A stretch of DNA of 34,857 bases from an uncultured Rhodospirillales bacterium (GTDB lineage Bacteria; Pseudomonadota; Alphaproteobacteria; CAAGCB01; CAG-977): positions 1-34,857 of the forward strand of contig CACYSU010000020.1 in NCBI GenBank assembly GCA_902777205.1. Direction: 5' to 3'. This document shows, piece after piece, positions 4,496-23,709 of this stretch (within the stretch, counting starts at the first letter, position 1; each line of letters opens with the position of its first letter). A program made the translations under genes and the position numbers. The notes under the pieces are model-generated. The model was not told the DNA's origin and did not search any database. It saw only the letters and a list, made by a program, of their open reading frames with translations.

Positions 4496-5260
4496 TTACG
4501 CGACCGCCTCTTTCACAAAGCCGGCAAAACCGTTCTTATCCACTTCATCCAACAATTCGACGCCGCCGTCGGCGACGACGCGCCCGTTCGCCAGAACGTG
4601 AACCTTGTCCGGCATGATCTGTTCGCGGATGAATTTGATGTTGTGCGAAATGACCAAGAACGACCGTTCCGGCGACCGCATGATTTTGACGCCGTTGCCC
4701 GCGACCTTGACCGCGTCAACGTCCATGCCGGAATCCATTTCGTCCAAAATGCAGAAATCCGGTTCCAGCATCGCCATTTGGAACGTTTCCAGCCGTTTCT
4801 TTTCCCCGCCGGAAAACCCGACGTTGACGGGACGTTTCAGCATTTCGTCCGACACGTTCAGCGCCTGCGCCCTGACCTTGATCCGCTTCATAAACCCGAC
4901 GGCGTCCAGCTCTTTTTCCCCCGCGGCCTTGCGTCGGGCGTTCAGCGCGTATTTCATAAACGTCGCCATGGACACGCCGGGGATTTCGACCGGACTTTGA
5001 AAAGCCAGAAAAACGCCCAGACGCGCGCGTTCCTCGACATTCAGTTTCAGCAGGTCTTCGCCCTTGAACGTCACGGATCCGCCGGTGACTTCGTAATGCG
5101 GATTGCCGCACAGCACGTTTGAAAGCGTGCTTTTCCCCGACCCGTTCGGCCCCATGATGACGTGAACTTCGCCCGCGTCGATCGACAGCGACAGACCGTT
5201 CAAAATGGTTTTGTCACCGGCTTTGGCGCGCAGATCGTTGATTTCCAGCCAAGCTGTCAT
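4496..5260 (-). CDS. sufC: Fe-S assembly ATPase SufC
   Basis: 254 residues, normal for SufC, a soluble ABC-type ATPase that drives conformational change of the SufBCD scaffold. Walker A is GPNGSGKST (37-45), the ABC signature SGGEKK is at 150-155, Walker B is FCILDEMDSG (169-178) and the H-loop is VISHN near 205. LAFQSPVEIPGV is the Q-loop region typical of SufC. An AAGGAG ribosome site lies just upstream of ATG 5260, in the 16-base gap after sufB. Confidence 0.96.
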   Translation of the reverse strand: MTAWLEINDLRAKAGDKTILNGLSLSIDAGEVHVIMGPNGSGKSTLSNVLCGNPHYEVTGGSVTFKGEDLLKLNVEERARLGVFLAFQSPVEIPGVSMATFMKYALNARRKAAGEKELDAVGFMKRIKVRAQALNVSDEMLKRPVNVGFSGGEKKRLETFQMAMLEPDFCILDEMDSGMDVDAVKVAGNGVKIMRSPERSFLVISHNIKFIREQIMPDKVHVLANGRVVADGGVELLDEVDKNGFAGFVKEAVA

Positions 5261-5276
5261 AATCGTATTCTCCTTT

Positions 5277-6710
5277 TTAACCGACGCTGCCTTCCAACGT
5301 CACGGCGACCAGACGCGTCGCTTCGACGGCGAATTCCATCGGCAGTTTTTGCATGACGTCCTTGCAGAACCCGTTGACGATCAAAGACACGGATTCTTCG
5401 GCGTTCAATCCCCGCTGACGACAGTAGAACAGCTGTTCGTCGCTGATTTTCGACGTTGTCGCTTCGTGTTCGACGGACGCCGTCGGATTGGAACTGAGCA
5501 TACAGGGCAGCGTGTGCGCCCCGCATTGCGACCCGATCAGCAAGCTGTCGCATTGTGAAAAATTGCGGGCGTTTTCGGCGTTTTTGCCCATTTTGACCAA
5601 CCCGCGATAGGTGTTTTGCGATTTTCCGGCGGAAATCCCCTTTGACACGATGGTCGAAGACGTGTTTTTCCCCAGATGGATCATCTTCGTTCCCGTGTCC
5701 GCCTGCTGATAATTGTTCGTGATCGCGACGGAATAAAACTCGCCGACCGAATTGTCGCCCATTAAAACGCAGGACGGATATTTCCACGTCACCGCGGACC
5801 CCGTTTCGACCTGCGTCCACGACAGCTTTGAATTCACGCCGCGGCACAGTCCGCGTTTCGTCACAAAGTTGTAAATGCCGCCCTTGCCGTCCTTGTCCCC
5901 CGGATACCAGTTCTGAACGGTCGAGTATTTGACCTCGGCGTCGTTCATGACGATGATTTCAACGATCGCCGCGTGCAGCTGGTTTTCGTCGCGCTGCGGG
6001 GCGGTGCATCCCTCCAGATAGCTGACATAGGAATTGTCGTCGGCGATGATCATCGTGCGCTCGAACTGTCCCGATTTTTTCGCGTTGATGCGGAAATAGG
6101 TGGACAGTTCCATCGGGCAGCGCACTCCTTTGGGAATATAGACGAACGTCCCGTCCGTGAACACCGCGGAATTCAGGCAGGCGAAAAAGTTGTCCGTATA
6201 TGGCACGACCGACCCCAGATACTTTTTCACCAGATCGGGGTGGTTTTGCACGGCTTCGGAAATCGACGAAAAGATGATGCCCTGCTTGGCCAGCCGGTCG
6301 CGGAACGTCGTCGCGACGGAAACGCTGTCGAACACGGCGTCAACGGCGACGCCGGCCAGCACTTCGCGTTCGTGCAAAGGCACGCCCAGCTTTTCATAGG
6401 TTTTCATCAGCTCCGGATCTATTTCCGTTTTCTTGTCCGTTTTCGGCGCGGCGTAATAATAAATGTCCTGATAGTCGATCGGCGGATATTCGACCTTCGC
6501 CCACCGCGGTTCCGTCATGGTCAGCCAGTGGCGGTAGGCTTTCAACCGGAAATCCAGCAGCCATTCGGGTTCGTTTTTCTTGGCCGAAATATAGCGGATG
6601 ATGTCTTCGTTCAGCCCTTTCGGCGCCGTTTCCGCGTCGATGTCCGTTTCAAACCCGTAATGGTACGTGTCCGAAACGGCTTCCAAAGCCGAAACCTTGT
6701 CCTGCGTCAT
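5277..6710 (-). CDS. sufB: Fe-S assembly scaffold SufB
   Basis: 477 residues from ATG 6710, chosen because GGAGGAA sits 5 bases upstream; the open frame runs 19 codons further to 6767 without a comparable site. Sequence blocks typical of SufB are present: [35 protein letters not shown] and [20 protein letters not shown] near the C-terminus. SufB is the core subunit on which the nascent [Fe-S] cluster forms, acting with SufC and SufD in the cytosol. It is the first gene of the minus-strand SUF operon. No IscR, RirA or other regulator gene lies beside it, and I could not identify a convincing iron-response operator in the upstream 130 bases. Confidence 0.96.
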
Positions 6711-15843: not shown

Positions 15844-16395
15844 TCACCCCGCGACGCAGCAACATCCGTCGGCGGACAGCTTCATATCGTCCGGACAGGA
15901 AATGACCGTGCCCGTTTTTCCGGAATCAACGGTGACGCATTTTCCGTTTTTCAGTGTGTAGCCGCTTTTGCACGCCGTGCAGACCGACGACGACGAACAC
16001 GCGGAACAGTTGGCGGGACAAGTGACGGAAGCGGTCGTTTTGCGTTCACATCTATAGTATGAAATTGATGTGTAACTGCTTCCGTCATAGCTGCTTGTCG
16101 TGGCTTTTTTCAATTCATATCCGCTGTTGCAGGAATCGCACGAACCAAGTGTGCTGTTTGCATAGGAATGAATTTCCCCTTTCTCTTCGTCCCAGTATTG
16201 ACAAGTCGTCCAATAACGGACGCCGCTGCAGGATGAACATCCGCTTGGGCAGGAAACGCAACGCTCGGCACTAAAACCGCTGTTGTCACCGCAAGATTCA
16301 GCCGCCGAATAATACTGTCCCGAACTGCACGACAGCGCCTTTGCTTCCGCCGCGAACAGTAAAAACAGGCTGAATATCAATAAAAATCTTTTCAT
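15844..16395 (-). CDS. Secreted cysteine-rich protein (20 Cys)
   Basis: 183 residues from ATG 16395, with GGAGGGA immediately upstream; the open frame runs further to 16584 but that part overlaps the structured segment and lacks a start site. The signal peptide is MKRFLLIFSLFLLFAAEAKA. The mature protein of about 160 residues holds 20 cysteines in CxxC and CxxxC clusters, such as CVSCPSGCSSCSG, CDSCNSGYEL and CTACKSGYTLKNGKC. These resemble the furin-like or EGF-like cysteine repeats of eukaryotic surface proteins. Ten disulfides are possible, which implies export and a Dsb-type oxidation system. The function is unknown; a surface or adhesion role is a guess from the repeat type. Confidence 0.75.
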   Translation of the reverse strand: MKRFLLIFSLFLLFAAEAKALSCSSGQYYSAAESCGDNSGFSAERCVSCPSGCSSCSGVRYWTTCQYWDEEKGEIHSYANSTLGSCDSCNSGYELKKATTSSYDGSSYTSISYYRCERKTTASVTCPANCSACSSSSVCTACKSGYTLKNGKCVTVDSGKTGTVISCPDDMKLSADGCCCVAG

Positions 16396-16419
16396 AGCTC
16401 CCTCCTTTTTCAGGCAAAA

Positions 16420-16444
16420 GAAAAACCGCCTGAAACAAGCGGTT
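16420..16444 (-). terminator. Rho-independent terminator of the candidate RNA
   Basis: On the minus strand AACCGC (16444-16439), a 9-base loop and GCGGTT (16429-16424) run into a T tract. It ends the gene-free segment and lies 25 bases before the Cys-rich gene's start. It cannot belong to serS, which has its own terminator 300 bases upstream. Confidence 0.75.
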
Positions 16445-16700
16445 CGGGGAGTTAGAACAATCAACTGTTGCGGTGATTCCCTTTGACCTTTAAAGCGGCA
16501 CCGCGAACGGCGCGCTTCTGAACATACGCCAAAAGCTCCCCGTTCCACCAAAGGAAATCGGGGATAATGTCCCGCCTCCGCCAATCTCGCGGAAACGGTA
16601 ACGGCGCCCTATCGCGGCACCGGCAACAGTAAAGAGCTGTTCTAAGGCTCCGCACCTCTTTTTCAGGTACTTGGCGCACCGGAACATCCGATACGCTTGG
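16436..16700 (-). ncRNA. Candidate rod-like noncoding RNA
   Basis: This segment lies between two minus-strand terminators and has no credible protein. Minus-strand nested helices found by eye: CAAGCG/CGCTTG (16699-16694, 16441-16436); TCGG/CCGA (16691-16688, 16447-16444); side hairpin GTACCT/AGGTGC (16670-16665, 16657-16652); GGAG/CTCC (16651-16648, 16451-16448); TTAGAACA/TGTTCTAA (16645-16638, 16459-16452); ACTGTTG/CAACAGT (16630-16624, 16470-16464); an 11-bp helix 16622-16612 with 16506-16496. The apical domain has two more hairpins. The outermost helix begins where the promoter at 16734-16705 would start transcription. Size, about 265 nt, and a rod joining both ends are loosely like 6S RNA, but I do not recognise 6S, RNase P, tmRNA or SRP signatures. 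Confidence 0.6.
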
Positions 16701-16797: not shown

Positions 16798-18075
16798 TTA
16801 TTTTTTCGCGGCGATGACCGTTTGACCGTTCATGTATTTCCGCAGTGCTTCGGGGATCAGAACCGATCCGTCCGCCTGCTGATAGTTTTCCATCACGGCG
16901 ATCATGCAGCGGCCGACCGCGACGCCCGACCCGTTCAGGGTGTGGACGAAACGCGTGCCTTTCTGCGCCTTGCTTTTGCAGCGGGCGTCCATACGGCGCG
17001 CCTGAAAATCCCAGCAGTTGGAAACGCTGGAAATTTCGCGGTATTTGTTCTGACCGGGCATCCAGACTTCCAAATCGTGGGTTTTGCGGGACGAAAATCC
17101 CATATCGCCCGCGGACAGGCACATCACGCGGTACGGCAGGTTCAGGCCTTTCAGCACGTCTTCGGCGCAGTTGGTCATATATTCGTGTTCTTCCCACGAT
17201 TTTTCCGGCGTGGTGATCGCGACCATTTCCACTTTGTAAAACTGGTGCTGGCGGATCATGCCGCGCGTGTCCTTGCCGGCCGCGCCCGCTTCGGAACGGA
17301 AGCACGGGGTCAGCGCCGTCAAACGCAGCGGCAGGCTGTCTTCGTCCAACGCCTTGCCCGCGACAAAGTTCGTCAGGCTGACTTCCGCCGTCGGGATCAG
17401 CCAGTAATCGTCCGTCGTGTGATACAGGTCTTCGGCGAATTTGGGCAGCTGCGCCGTGCCGTACATCGCGGAGCTGTTGACCATCAAAGGCACTTCCATT
17501 TCGGTGTAGCCGTGCTTTTCACGGTGCATATCCAGCATATACTGCGCCAAAGCGCGTTCCAAACGCGCCAGATCGCCCAGCAGATAAACAAAACGCGCAC
17601 CGGACACTTTGGCAGCCTGATCGAAATCCATCAATCCCAGTTTGGCGCCGATTTCGTCGTGTTCCAACGGTTTGAAATCGAATTCGCGCGGTTCGCCCCA
17701 GCGGCGAATCTCGCGGTTCGTCGTGTCGTCCAATCCGTCGGGGATATCGTCGGCGGGACGGTTCGGCAACGTTTTCAGAACGGCGTCGATCTTGTCGCAC
17801 AACGCGCAAACGTCTTCTTCGGCGTCGGCCATGCCGCGTTTCAGCGCGCCGACTTCGTGCATCAGGACATCCGCGTCGCCGCCGGCCTTTTTCACTTCGG
17901 CGACCTGACGGGACAATTCGTTGCGGCGCGACTGCATTTCCTGCAAATCGGTCTGCGCGGCGCGGTATTTGCGGTCCAGTTCCAAAACTTCGGCGGAACG
18001 GGGCTGCTGCCCGCGGCGTTCCAACCCCTTGTCAAACAATTCGGGATTTTCCCTGATCCATTTAATGTCGTACAT
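16798..18075 (-). CDS. serS: Seryl-tRNA synthetase
   Basis: 425 residues, normal for bacterial SerRS. The N-terminal tRNA-binding coiled coil (about 30-100) is followed by the class II catalytic core: motif 2 [20 protein letters not shown] and motif 3 [20 protein letters not shown]. It charges tRNA-Ser in the cytosol. AGGAGA precedes ATG 18075. It is the last gene of the minus-strand operon, 28 bases after tatC. Confidence 0.97.
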
Positions 18076-18103: not shown

Positions 18104-18916
18104 TTACTTATAGCCCTGATCTTTTTTGTTTTCAAGCGATTGAATGTACCAAACGGAACTTTCGTACAAAAACAAAAGCGGCAGCGCCAAGGCAAACTGG
18201 CTGACGATGTCGGGCGGCGTCAAAACCGCGGCGGCGACAAAGATGAAAACGATCGCGTAACGCCGGAAATCCCGCAGGTTTTGCGCGCAAATCACCCCCA
18301 TGCGCCCCAAAACCGCCAGCACGACCGGCAGCTGGAAACTGAACCCGAACGCCAGAATCAGGCCGGTCAAAAAGGACAGGTATTCACTCAGCCGCGCTTC
18401 CAAAACGACCGGCAGAGCGTTGTTCGCGGCCGCCAGCTGTTGAAACGACAGCAGGAATTTAAACGCGACGGGCATCAGGCCGAAAAACACGAACACCCCG
18501 CCCGCGACGAACAAAACGGGGGACACGATGAAAAAGGGTCGGATCGCGCCGCGTTCGGACGGATAAAGCCCCGGCGCGATAAACCGCCACGCCTGAAACG
18601 CCGCGAACGGAAACGTCAGAACAACGGCGGCGAAAGCCGACAGTTTCAAATGCGTGACGAACCCTTCGGCCAAACCGGTGAAAATCAGCCTTTGCGACCC
18701 GCCCGTCTGTTCCATCGCGCGCGCCAAAGGATACATCAAAACATCCAATATCCGGCCGGCGAACGGGTAACAGCACAAAAAGGCGGCGACGAAAAACAAA
18801 AACGATTTCAGTACGCGCGAACGCAGTTCGGTCAAATGGCCGACCCACGTCATCATTTTTTCGGGATCCGATTTTTCACCGATGCGCGCGTCGGGCGGGA
18901 AAACTTCATTTTCCAT
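18104..18916 (-). CDS. tatC: Twin-arginine translocase subunit TatC
   Basis: 270 residues from ATG 18916; in-frame alternatives are ATG 18928 and GTG 18940. All three overlap the end of tatB. TatC is the multi-spanning receptor of the Tat pathway, which exports folded proteins with RR signal peptides. Visible TatC features: HLTELRSRVLKS before the first helix, then FTGLAEGFVTHLKLS, PFAAFQAWRFIAPGLYPSER and the later periplasmic loop before TPPDIVSQ. Six membrane segments can be counted. It sits directly after tatB, as expected. Confidence 0.95.
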   Translation of the reverse strand: MENEVFPPDARIGEKSDPEKMMTWVGHLTELRSRVLKSFLFFVAAFLCCYPFAGRILDVLMYPLARAMEQTGGSQRLIFTGLAEGFVTHLKLSAFAAVVLTFPFAAFQAWRFIAPGLYPSERGAIRPFFIVSPVLFVAGGVFVFFGLMPVAFKFLLSFQQLAAANNALPVVLEARLSEYLSFLTGLILAFGFSFQLPVVLAVLGRMGVICAQNLRDFRRYAIVFIFVAAAVLTPPDIVSQFALALPLLFLYESSVWYIQSLENKKDQGYK

Positions 18917-19166
18917 CCGTTTTTTCATCCTTTTCTTCACGCTTTTCCGCCAAAGTTTCGTTCAGCTTCGCTTCGGCTTTCGCGGCGATCCGGTCGGCAT
19001 CATACATAGTATCATCAATGACTTGCGACACGTTTCTAGCAAACCGGTTTAACTTTCTGTACACGCGGCCGCACACGCGCAAAACCTGCGGCAGCTGTTG
19101 GGGGCCGACCACCAGCAGCGCGACGAACAGGATGACGACAAATTCCGTCGAACTGATGCCGAACAC
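18906..19166 (-). CDS. tatB: Sec-independent translocase subunit TatB
   Basis: 86 residues from a GTG start at 19166. The N-terminal membrane helix (MFGISSTEFVVILFVALLVV), the GPQQLP hinge and the long charged amphipathic helix are typical of TatB. With TatC it forms the signal-peptide receptor. GGACG near the end of tatA can serve as a ribosome site. The C-terminal tail is a short Lys/Glu stretch. Confidence 0.92.
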   Translation of the reverse strand: MFGISSTEFVVILFVALLVVGPQQLPQVLRVCGRVYRKLNRFARNVSQVIDDTMYDADRIAAKAEAKLNETLAEKREEKDEKTDGK

Positions 19167-19169
19167 GGA

Positions 19170-19355
19170 TCAGGCGTCCTTGGACGGATCGTTTTCGGCG
19201 GGTTTGTTTTCCGGTTCCTTGTCCTCGTTCAGCCCCTTTTTAAACGAGCTGACGCTTTTGCCCAAATCCTCGGCCAAAGCGGGCAGTTTGCCGCGGCCGA
19301 ACAGCACCAAAACGATCAGCAGAATGACCAACAGCTGGAAAAAACCGATACTCAT
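19170..19355 (-). CDS. tatA: TatA reading frame with its own internal start inside the S2P fusion
   Basis: The last 61 codons of the 293-codon frame are a complete TatA: MSIGFFQLLVILLIVLVLFG, the hinge RGKLPALAEDL, the FKKGL amphipathic helix and an acidic tail. TatA oligomers form the export pore of the Tat system. ATG 19355 (codon 233 of the long frame) has AAGGAG 8 bases upstream, so free TatA can be made from this internal start. The gene order TatA-TatB-TatC and the spacing of 3 bases to tatB support a functional TatA. The protein may therefore exist both free and as the tail of the protease. Confidence 0.85.
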   Translation of the reverse strand: MSIGFFQLLVILLIVLVLFGRGKLPALAEDLGKSVSSFKKGLNEDKEPENKPAENDPSKDA

Positions 19356-20051
19356 GCCTTTTTCTCCTTGTATCAAACCGAACAATCCGGCGAAAAAATA
19401 GGTCAGCTTTTGAACGCTGAACGCCAGAAAACGGGAAACGAACGCGAAATCCCTTCCCGTATAGTCACCCAAAAGCGGCAAAAAAATCAACAGCAAAGCG
19501 ATGACGCCGAACCCGTATTTTTCCGTGCGCGCAAACCGGATCGCTTGGCGCATCGGCAAAATCCCCGTCAATATCCGCCCGCCGTCCAACGGCAAAACGG
19601 GAAGCAGGTTGAATGTCATCAGCGAAAAATTGAACAGAACCGCATTCAGCAGCATCCGGACAACCGCGGGCGCGGCCGAAAAGGCGGCGTTTTGCATCAC
19701 ACCCAGCGCGGCCAGAGCCGCCAAAGCCAAAACGAAATTCATCGCGGGTCCCGCCATGGCGACCCAAACCATATCCCTTTTCGGATTTTTCAGGCGGGAA
19801 AAATCGACCGGAACGGGTTTCGCCCATCCGAAAACAAACGGCGAATGTGACAACACCAAAGTCAGTGGAAACAACACCGTTCCGACGGGCTCAACGTGCC
19901 GCAGCGGATTTGGCGTCAGCCGCCCCGCGTCCCGTGCCGTCGGATCGCCGAAACGCAACGCGGCGAACCCGTGCGCCATTTCGTGCAGGACGACGCCCAA
20001 AACGACGGGAACCGCCCATTCCAATGTTGACAGCAGCGCGGCCGCGTCCAT
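19170..20051 (-). CDS. Site-2 protease (M50) in frame with TatA
   Basis: 293 residues. Residues 1-230 are a short M50 site-2 protease: HEMAHG (H23, E24, H27), a central membrane helix pair and FNLLPVLPLDGGRIL with the zinc-binding D156, the full family signature. Such proteases cut substrates within the membrane. No stop codon separates it from TatA (from M233), so a fused protein with a C-terminal TatA is encoded. The start ATG directly follows the nagZ stop (TAAATG). In related operons I expect scpA and scpB at this position; they are absent. Whether the fusion is made, or mostly separate products from two starts, cannot be told from sequence. Confidence 0.85.
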   Translation of the reverse strand: MDAAALLSTLEWAVPVVLGVVLHEMAHGFAALRFGDPTARDAGRLTPNPLRHVEPVGTVLFPLTLVLSHSPFVFGWAKPVPVDFSRLKNPKRDMVWVAMAGPAMNFVLALAALAALGVMQNAAFSAAPAVVRMLLNAVLFNFSLMTFNLLPVLPLDGGRILTGILPMRQAIRFARTEKYGFGVIALLLIFLPLLGDYTGRDFAFVSRFLAFSVQKLTYFFAGLFGLIQGEKGMSIGFFQLLVILLIVLVLFGRGKLPALAEDLGKSVSSFKKGLNEDKEPENKPAENDPSKDA

Positions 20052-21083
20052 TTACGCCACTTTTCCCAACAGCCAGCTTCTGGCCGCTTCGTAATCGAAA
20101 TCCGCCGCGTGTTCGACGGCCTGCTTGCGCATTTCCTGCCCGCGGACGAAACGTTCCATCGCGCGCGCGGACAGCGGTTCGACGGCCGAAGCGATCATGT
20201 CCATTTCGTCCATGTCGCCGTTGCAATGCAAAACGGCGTCGCATCCGGCGGCCAGAGCCTCCGTCGTCAAATCGGACAGCGTGCCGGACAGCGCTTTCAT
20301 CGACAAATCGTCGCAGATCAGGAAACCTTTGAACCCGATTTCGCCGCGGATCACGTCCTGAATGACCTTTTCGGACAGCGACGCGGGTTTGTGTTCGTCA
20401 AGGGCGGTGTACAAAACGTGCGCCGTCATCCCCCACGGGGCGGACGCCAAGTATTTAAACGGCTGGAAATCCGTCTGTCGCAGCGTTTCCAGATCGGCGT
20501 TGACGACCGGCAGTTCAAAATGACTGTCAACGATCGCGCGGCCGTGTCCGGGCATATGCTTGACGACCGGCAGGACGCCCTCTTCCATCAGCCCTTCGCA
20601 AATGGCCGCGCCCAAGGCGCCGACCGTGTGCGGGTTGCGGGCGAACGTCCGGTCGCCCAAAATCTTTTCGTTCGATCCTTCGACGGGAACGTCCAACACA
20701 GGAGCGCAATCGACGTTGATGCCGATTTGGCGCAGATCACGCCCCATCAGACGCGCCGTGCCGTGCGCCGCTTTCAACGCGGCCAAAGCGCCGTGTTCGT
20801 ACATATCGCCGTACATCTGCACGGGCGGATATTTCTGCCAATAGGACGATTTCAACCGCGAAACGCGGCCGCCTTCCTGATCAATCAAAACGGGGGCGTC
20901 GTCGCGGCCGACCGTTTCACGCAAAGACTGCACCAGCGTTTTCAGCTGCTCCGGCGTCGCGATGTTGCGTGAAAACAAAATGAAGCCAAGCGGATTGACG
21001 CGCTCGAAAAACTCTTTTTCCTCGTCGGTCAGAGCCAAACCGGAACAGCCGAACACTACGGCTGAAGGATATTCATTTAACAA
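20052..21083 (-). CDS. nagZ: Beta-N-acetylhexosaminidase NagZ (GH3)
   Basis: 343 residues, normal for NagZ. It removes GlcNAc from muropeptides during cell-wall recycling in the cytosol. Motifs are KHMPGHGRAIVDSHFELP, with the catalytic His of the mobile loop, and LICDDLSMKAL, where the Asp of DDLSM is the nucleophile. DQEGGRVSRLK and GDRTFARNP are further GH3 blocks. The start overlaps the SPOR gene by 11 bases. Confidence 0.95.
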   Translation of the reverse strand: MLNEYPSAVVFGCSGLALTDEEKEFFERVNPLGFILFSRNIATPEQLKTLVQSLRETVGRDDAPVLIDQEGGRVSRLKSSYWQKYPPVQMYGDMYEHGALAALKAAHGTARLMGRDLRQIGINVDCAPVLDVPVEGSNEKILGDRTFARNPHTVGALGAAICEGLMEEGVLPVVKHMPGHGRAIVDSHFELPVVNADLETLRQTDFQPFKYLASAPWGMTAHVLYTALDEHKPASLSEKVIQDVIRGEIGFKGFLICDDLSMKALSGTLSDLTTEALAAGCDAVLHCNGDMDEMDMIASAVEPLSARAMERFVRGQEMRKQAVEHAADFDYEAARSWLLGKVA

Positions 21084-21957
21084 CGAAACACTCCTGCTTT
21101 TTCTTTTTCAGTTGATCGCACAACGCCTTCGCGTCGTCCCGTTTGTCGAAACGCCCGACGCGCAAACGGTAAAACGTGCCGTTCGTCACGACCGTTTTGG
21201 ATATGGCGTGCGGCATGGACGCGATGATTTCCTTGTGTTTTTTCGACAAACGCTTCCATTCGCTTTCCGCGGCCTGTTCGGTGCGGGCGGAAACCAGCTG
21301 GACGGCATAGGAAACGGCGGGCTGAACCGGCTTTGTTTCCGGCAACGGCGTTTTTTCAGCCTTCTTTTCCGCCGGTTTTTCGATCTGTTTTTCCGCCGGT
21401 TTTTCTTTTTCCGCAACGATAGGTTCAGGTTCGGGCGTCACCGTTGCGGCGGCGGTTTCCTTAAACATCACCTCGACCGGCGTGCCGTCCTCTTCATACA
21501 CGACGGCCGTGGCGGGCGCGGACGTTTCCTGCGCCGCCAGATCCGTCACCAACGCGGCGATGGCGTCCGGTTCCTGTTCCTGCGCGGGCGAAACGGGCTT
21601 TTCCGCGGGGGGCAGCAGCCGTTCGACCGGCAATTCCGTATTGCTTTGGCGCAAACGTTCATACACCAGCTTGTCACGGTTCGGAACCTCCATCCCCCCC
21701 GGCGTGTCGGGTTTCATGCCGTCCATCGACCGGTCGGCGCGAATGACGGGCAAATCGCCGCTGTCCGCCCCGTAATAAACGGAAACGTATTTGCCGAACG
21801 TCAGGCATCCGACGCCCGCGGCGATCAGCACGCCGATCGAAACGCCGATCAGGATCGCGGGGCGTTTTTTGCGCTGTTCCATTCTTTCTTCGCGAAACGA
21901 GGAAAGGATGTCTTCCTGCGACGTGTCCGTTTCATCCGTTTCCGGCGTTTGAATCAT
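21073..21957 (-). CDS. SPOR-domain membrane protein
   Basis: 294 residues. Order: a short cytosolic N-terminus (1-33), one membrane helix (RPAILIGVSIGVLIAAGVGC), a long Pro/Glu/Lys-rich periplasmic linker, and a C-terminal SPOR domain (about 213-292) with YAVQLVSARTEQAAESEWKR and FYRLRVGRFDKRDDAKALCD. SPOR domains bind denuded septal peptidoglycan, so a division-site role is likely. Its stop and start overlap nagZ and abut argS (TAAATG), the order usual in Alphaproteobacteria. Confidence 0.9.
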   Translation of the reverse strand: MIQTPETDETDTSQEDILSSFREERMEQRKKRPAILIGVSIGVLIAAGVGCLTFGKYVSVYYGADSGDLPVIRADRSMDGMKPDTPGGMEVPNRDKLVYERLRQSNTELPVERLLPPAEKPVSPAQEQEPDAIAALVTDLAAQETSAPATAVVYEEDGTPVEVMFKETAAATVTPEPEPIVAEKEKPAEKQIEKPAEKKAEKTPLPETKPVQPAVSYAVQLVSARTEQAAESEWKRLSKKHKEIIASMPHAISKTVVTNGTFYRLRVGRFDKRDDAKALCDQLKKKKQECFVVK

Positions 21958-23709
21958 TTACATCTCCTGTGCGGGAACGACGCCGAAAACGGCCAGTCCC
22001 GATTGAACGACAAGGGCGGCCGCCTCGACCAAAGCCAGACGCGCCATGGACAGCTCCGGTTTGCCGGATTCCAAAAAGCGCAGCTCCGTATTGTCGCGCC
22101 CTTTGTTCCACAACCCGTGGAACGCCGCGGCCGTATCGTTCAGATAGTACGCGATGCGGTGCGGTTCGTGCGCCGCCGCCGCGATTTCGATCTGACGCGG
22201 AAAATCGGCCAGCTGGCGGATTAAAGCGATTTCCGCTTCGTCTGTCAACAACGAAAAATCGGCGCCGGCCAAAGCGGACAGGCTCAAATCCCGATCGGGG
22301 AACATTTCCGCGGCGCGGCGGCGGACGGAACAGGCGCGCGCATAGGCGTAGTTCACATAGAAAACGGGGTTGTCCTTGGACTGTTCCTTGACCTTTTCCA
22401 CGTCGAAATCCAGATGCGCGTCGTTTTTGCGCGTCAGCATGATAAAGCGCATCACGTCCTTTCCGACCGCATCCACCATGTCGCGCAAAGTCACAAACCG
22501 CCCCGCGCGTTTCGACATTTTCATCGGTTCGCCGTCGCACATCAGGTTGACCATCTGGCACAGTTTGACATCCAGCTTGCCTTTGCCGTCGGTCAGCGCC
22601 TTGATCGCGGCGGTCATGCGCTTGACGTATCCGGCGTGATCCGCGCCCCAAACGTCGATCATATCGGTAAACCCGCGGCGGTATTTGTCCAGATGATACG
22701 CCATGTCGGACGCGAAATAAGTCTGAAAACCGTTGGATTTTTTCAAAGCGCGGTCAACGTCGTCACCGAACAGCGTCGCTTTGAACAGCGTTTGGGGATG
22801 CGGTTCGTAATCTTCGACGATTTTGCCTTTGGGCGGTTCCAAAACGCCTTCGTAAATCAAGCCCTTGGCGCGCAAAAATTCGATGACCTCGTCGATTTTG
22901 CCGGATTCGACCAAAGCGCGTTCGGATGAAAACACGTCGAATTTGATGCCCAAAGCGGCCAGATCGGCGCGGATCATATCCATCATTCTGTCAATGGCGA
23001 ACGTGCGGAACTCTTTCAGCCATTCGGATTCGGGCTTGTCCAGCCACTTGTCGCCGTCGCGTTCGGCCAACGCCTTTCCGACGGGGATCAGATAATCGCC
23101 GGGGTACAGGCCTTCGGGGATTTTGCCGATGTCTTCGCCCAGCGCCTCTTTATACCGCAGGTACGCCGACCGCGCCAGCACGTCAACCTGCGCGCCCGCG
23201 TCATTGATATAGTATTCGCGGGTCACGTCATAGCCCGCCTTTTCCAGCAAAGACGCCAAAGCGTCGCCGAACACCGCCCCGCGGCTGTGTCCGATGTGCA
23301 TGGGGCCCGTCGGGTTGGCGGAAACGAATTCGACGTTTTTCTTCCGCCCTTTGCCCATATCCGAATCGCCGTATTTTTCCCCCTGCGACAGGATGTCTTT
23401 CAAACAGGCGTCCCAGAACACCTTTGACAGGCGCATATTCACAAATCCGGGGCCGGCGATTTCAACGGCGTCAACGATCGGCAGGCTTTGCAGCTCGGCC
23501 GCCAGAATTTCGGCGAATTCGCGCGGTTTCATCCCCGCCTGCCCCGCCAGCACCATGGCGGCGTTCGTCGCGGCGTCCCCGTGGGCGGCGTCGCGCGGCG
23601 GTTCGGCGACCAAACGCGCCGTGTTCAATCCGGACGGCAGCTTTCCCGCCTGTTCCAAATGTTCCAGCGCGTCGATAATGTTGTTTCTGATCTGTGTAAA
23701 GATGTTCAT
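21958..23709 (-). CDS. argS: Arginyl-tRNA synthetase
   Basis: 583 residues, full length. Class I motifs: [20 protein letters not shown] carries the HIGH box, and [11 protein letters not shown] carries KMSKS-like residues. The N-terminal Arg-S domain and the C-terminal DALR-type anticodon-binding domain are both present. It charges tRNA-Arg in the cytosol. It starts 1 base after the dgt stop with AGGATTTAGG upstream. Confidence 0.97.

Follow-up and report, generated by a model that had tools for sequence, protein, structure and literature searches.

An open reading frame joining an M50 site-2 protease to TatA in a single alphaproteobacterial genus, with a predicted internal start for free TatA

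In Escherichia coli, infB and clpB contain in-frame internal starts, so that each gene gives a long and a short product. A second precedent concerns TatA itself: in Providencia stuartii this protein carries an 8-residue N-terminal extension, which blocks contact with TatC and the formation of large assemblies until the rhomboid protease AarA removes it (Fritsch et al., 2012; PMC3712462). The locus described here lies in a window of 34,857 nucleotides, the whole stretch of DNA analysed, from an uncultured Rhodospirillales bacterium (contig CACYSU010000020.1). Like infB and clpB, it has one frame and two starts, and the short form is the C-terminal part of the long one; unlike theirs, the short form belongs to a different protein family, encoded by a separate gene in relatives, and its start is predicted. 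With the Providencia system this locus shares a TatA with an N-terminal extension and an intramembrane protease linked to TatA, but the extension there is 8 residues long and the protease a separate serine rhomboid, whereas at this locus the extension consists of an entire M50 metalloprotease (PMC3712462). Providencia TatA is not known to have an internal start, and one is predicted here. A preliminary description of this DNA knew of no literature connecting an intramembrane protease with TatA, which was wrong in the wider sense, as AarA activates TatA.

The protease and a complete TatA are encoded in one uninterrupted frame (Table 1), in which Pfam recognizes Peptidase_M50 and, at residues 235–286, TatA_B_E. 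The junction reads GGT TTG ATA (end of the protease), CAA GGA GAA AAA GGC (linker) and ATG AGT (start of TatA). The preliminary description had stated that the protease frame has no stop before TatA and runs through it, and that TatA has its own ATG with AAGGAG eight bases upstream; both statements are correct, and the frame is open in the same way in four further species. As is evident from the frame itself, every ribosome that completes the protease must continue into TatA.

Table 1. Coordinates of the features discussed, as positions in the window
Feature	Position	Strand	Remarks
serS	16798..18075	-	downstream neighbour, conserved gene order
tatC	18104..18940	-	278 codons; overlaps tatB
tatB	18906..19166	-	86 codons; GTG start
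Fused M50 site-2 protease–TatA frame	19170..20051	-	293 codons
tatA	19170..19355	-	61 codons; own ATG (19355-19353); the genome's only tatA
Linker QGEKG, protease to TatA	19356..19370	-	five codons
AAGGAG Shine-Dalgarno of the internal tatA start	19364..19369	-	8 bases from ATG
Former stop codon site	19368..19370	-	CAA in window, G005 and G006; GAA in G001 and G003; TAA stop in G004
M50 site-2 protease part	19371..20051	-	227 codons; as long as in relatives with separate genes, which stop here
Asp-Gly of LDGG motif, residues 156-157	19581..19586	-	D156 and G157 the same in all 26 aligned sequences
HEMAH zinc-binding motif, residues 23-27	19971..19985	-	H23, E24 and H27 the same in all 26 aligned sequences
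nagZ-like glycosyl hydrolase family 3	20052..21083	-	stop codon immediately before M50 start
SPOR-domain protein	21073..21957	-	
argS	21958..23709	-	

By its motifs, its sequence profile and its modelled fold, the protease part is an intact M50 site-2 protease, of which activity is predicted. It matches PF02163 (E 1.3e-15), and HEMAH, the instance of the HExxH motif, lies within model helix 3–33, the first core helix. The model aligns with RseP (7w6x; Z 10.5, rmsd 3.7, 166 residues) and with mjS2P (3b4r; Z 10.4, rmsd 4.3, 164 residues); the fold assignment is based on the sequence profile and this second structural alignment, not on Foldseek alone, which by itself found 3b4r at an E of only 0.011. 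In one fused relative, G003 (L151, near 4169), the M50 frame meets no stop for some 200 bases on the upstream side of its first aligned codon and reaches into nagZ; the start codon is uncertain.

The TatA part passes the NCBIfam model TIGR01411 (tatAE) with 62–67 bits against a cut-off of 53.9, and also matches PF02416. It has the features of the family, a short N-terminal transmembrane helix, an FG hinge (within LFGRGKLP) and an amphipathic helix; the AlphaFold model places its helices at 237–251 and 256–276 with a low pLDDT of 53–62. Genes tatB and tatC follow directly, and all five fused species have one TatA and one TatB per genome. A second tatA that would make the fusion dispensable was found neither in the genome nor in the genus, so TatA must come from the fused gene. 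How the TatA helix would sit in the membrane depends on the end of the protease, which can be aligned with RseP up to residue ~196 and is followed in the model by a further helix at 204–223. The RseP chain ends outside, and the last helix of mjS2P crosses the membrane. If helix 204–223 spans the membrane, the TatA segment would begin on the wrong side, as N-out, C-in is expected for TatA; insertion energies, computed with parameters that fail even on the core helix TM1, were ambiguous.

The sample of the window's order comprises a single family, represented by 12 genomes in three genera (G000, the window's own, to G011). Within the window's genus the frame is also open through TatA in G001, G003, G005 and G006, and the bases at the former stop differ: CAAGGAGA in the window and G006, CAAAGAGA in G005, GAAGGGGA in G001 and GAAAAGGA in G003. 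A further member of the genus, G004, has TAAGGAGG, with a TAA stop exactly at the junction that overlaps a perfect Shine-Dalgarno (SD) sequence. Six species of the genus thus allow a judgement: five, among them the window's own, are fused and one is separate (G002, whose contig ends inside tatC, was left out of the count), so that relatives do not all have separate genes. Outside the genus, G008 has a TAG stop that also overlaps the SD, G007 a TGA stop in another frame and G009 separate genes, and G011 lacks a protease at the corresponding place. In G144, of another alphaproteobacterial family (L159, about 4839–5700), M50 lies directly before tatA and a TGA stop overlaps the SD GGAG. The separate genes of G004, G008 and G144 encode the same proteins in the same order with a stop overlapping the tatA SD, and it is this stop that is missing here. 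Judging from these alignments, the fusion arose when a stop codon was lost within one genus. In a tree of five concatenated proteins G004 falls among the fused species with modest support (72–81), which implies that the stop was either lost twice, once to C and once to G, or lost once and later regained.

The gene order in the family is argS-SPOR-nagZ-M50-tatA-tatB-tatC-serS. A distant alphaproteobacterium, G273, has nagZ-M50-scpA-scpB-tatA-tatB (genes identified from their translations), and a search of the window's family (12 genomes) gave no match to ScpA (PF02616). The condensin partners ScpAB thus seem to have been lost throughout the family, and loss of scpA and scpB probably put the protease beside tatA. 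Beside serS in the window (15844–16584, minus strand) lies a gene whose cysteine-rich product has, at an internal Met, a probable signal peptide (MKRFLLIFSLFLLFAAEAKA). Matches to the twin-arginine signal model PF10518 exceed its cut-off in G001, G002 and G008; G000 has no match, so that this model reveals no Tat substrates in the window's own genome. In G010, which is ~96% complete, neither the M50 protein nor any of TatA, TatB and TatC was matched, and the Tat system may be lost there.

The fused species diverge by 0.7–1.0 substitutions per fourfold site. In simulated drift, with assumed branch lengths comparable to this divergence, 36–43% of runs ended with no stop among the five linker codons of any of the five species, and selection for read-through is therefore unsupported. 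Linker length is constant across the five species, but linker residues vary (QGEKG, QGDGV, QREGI, EGESI and EKESI); together with the drift result, this variation means that no advantage is required to explain how long the fusion has lasted, and its persistence shows that it does no serious harm. No other frame covering both domains was present among the matches listed for 385 genomes of the class, nor, at a strict threshold, in 398 genomes of the phylum, two samples that overlap in part. In a scan of 84,980 species genomes, a congener (L015) was the sole fused locus among the best 80; L076, whose match extended over residues 1–281, proved to be a separate M50 gene, a stop codon and then an unrelated gene. 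A plasmid search added nothing. A fusion elsewhere is possible.

The internal start of tatA appears credible. AAGGAG is not rare in itself (8 occurrences in the window, 7 expected), but when scored against the anti-Shine-Dalgarno, the window's internal SD has an energy that just 2.4% of internal in-frame ATGs in this genome equal (1682 sampled, from the window and 15 further stretches of 20 kb). The internal SDs of the five fused species, at −8.5 kcal/mol in the window, −9.2 in G006, −8.3 in G005, −9.3 in G001 and −7.3 in G003, fall in the top 2–4% of that background, and the TatA Met codon is kept in all five. At the protease start the SD is weaker: the window scores −6.3, the ATGs of G001, G005 and G006 score −3.3 to −3.8, and the aligned ATG of G003 scores −1.7, the values outside the window being less certain because the start codons are. 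A strong internal SD, a kept Met and a weaker SD at the protease start suggest that free TatA is favoured and that the fused protein is made in smaller amount. A simple consensus scan, which says little for this organism, found no promoter between M50 and tatA, and a weak terminator-like stem at 19420–19403 is within chance. The idea, already put forward in the preliminary description, that one gene yields both a fused and a free product is consistent with all of this: both are expected from the sequence, given the fusion in five species and the credible internal start.

Our preferred reading, to which we assign a probability of about 0.6, is that the Tat system works with free TatA made from the internal start, the fusion being a minor, tolerated product. 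A point mutation would have removed the stop between the two adjacent genes, a stop that overlapped the downstream SD and was in frame with tatA; with the in-frame ATG and the strong SD kept, ribosomes would also initiate there and yield a normal 61-residue TatA, which would work in the translocase with TatB and TatC. The protease with a TatA tail would be present in fewer copies and tolerated, probably without a Tat function. Two observations count against this reading: the SDs of the fused species are all weaker than that of unfused G004 (−12.8), as if free initiation mattered less in them, or merely because the overlapping bases changed, and the fusion has lasted over the whole divergence given above, even though one back mutation would be enough to bring the stop back. 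The weaker SDs, together with a single tatA gene and the lack of a stop, would also suit a fused protein that is the only TatA and does both jobs, the internal start being idle; we give this a very small chance, because none of the five species has lost the SD or the Met, TatA normally forms large assemblies and, in Providencia, an N-terminal extension inactivates TatA (PMC3712462). That an assembly or sequencing error conceals a stop or a frameshift, the outcome that would have undone the preliminary description, might be suspected from the genomes of the genus, which are in many contigs and at least one of which is a metagenome assembly. Yet five species agree on an open junction with different bases, and one of them is also represented by a public metagenome-assembled genome from roe deer rumen; such an error is excluded on this ground, its probability being close to nil.

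A working fusion, whose TatA tail would tether the protease to Tat complexes, where it would cleave signal peptides or failed parts of the translocase, we consider unlikely. It would account for the retention of the fusion in five species of the genus, for the intact catalytic motifs (in the window and G001), for the full length of both parts and for the constant length of the linker; however, linker residues are not conserved, retention fits drift, neither the other genera of the family nor the class and phylum samples (~400 genomes each) showed the fusion, insertion energies leave the orientation of the TatA helix ambiguous, and extended TatA fails to bind TatC in Providencia (PMC3712462). 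Since 8 residues suffice to inactivate Providencia TatA, a working extension of 232 residues would, by analogy, not be expected. The proposal of the preliminary description that the TatA tail places the protease at the Tat pore is thus unsupported, as the junction fits drift and the Providencia extension blocks TatA–TatC contact; a Tat-pore function is possible, and it is doubtful that in this one genus a fused protein, made alongside free TatA, carries an intramembrane metalloprotease to the Tat translocase. We see only a small chance that the fusion is a precursor, cut near the junction by its own site-2 protease part, a rhomboid or another protease to release active TatA. The protease does sit on the same chain as TatA, but the linker has no conserved cleavage motif, the internal start makes cutting unnecessary, and site-2 proteases mostly cut helices oriented opposite to TatA. 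The direct precedent for such a precursor is the activation of N-terminally extended TatA by AarA in Providencia (PMC3712462).

With free TatA from the internal start as the preferred reading, the locus would be a snapshot of the birth of a gene fusion, in which neighbouring genes were lost (scpA and scpB, probably), an SD-overlapping stop was lost, and the downstream gene survived on an internal start. Nature has here also set up an experiment on whether a large N-terminal partner is tolerated by TatA; Providencia TatA suggests, by analogy, that it should not be. If the fusion works, an M50 protease would be tied to the Tat system.
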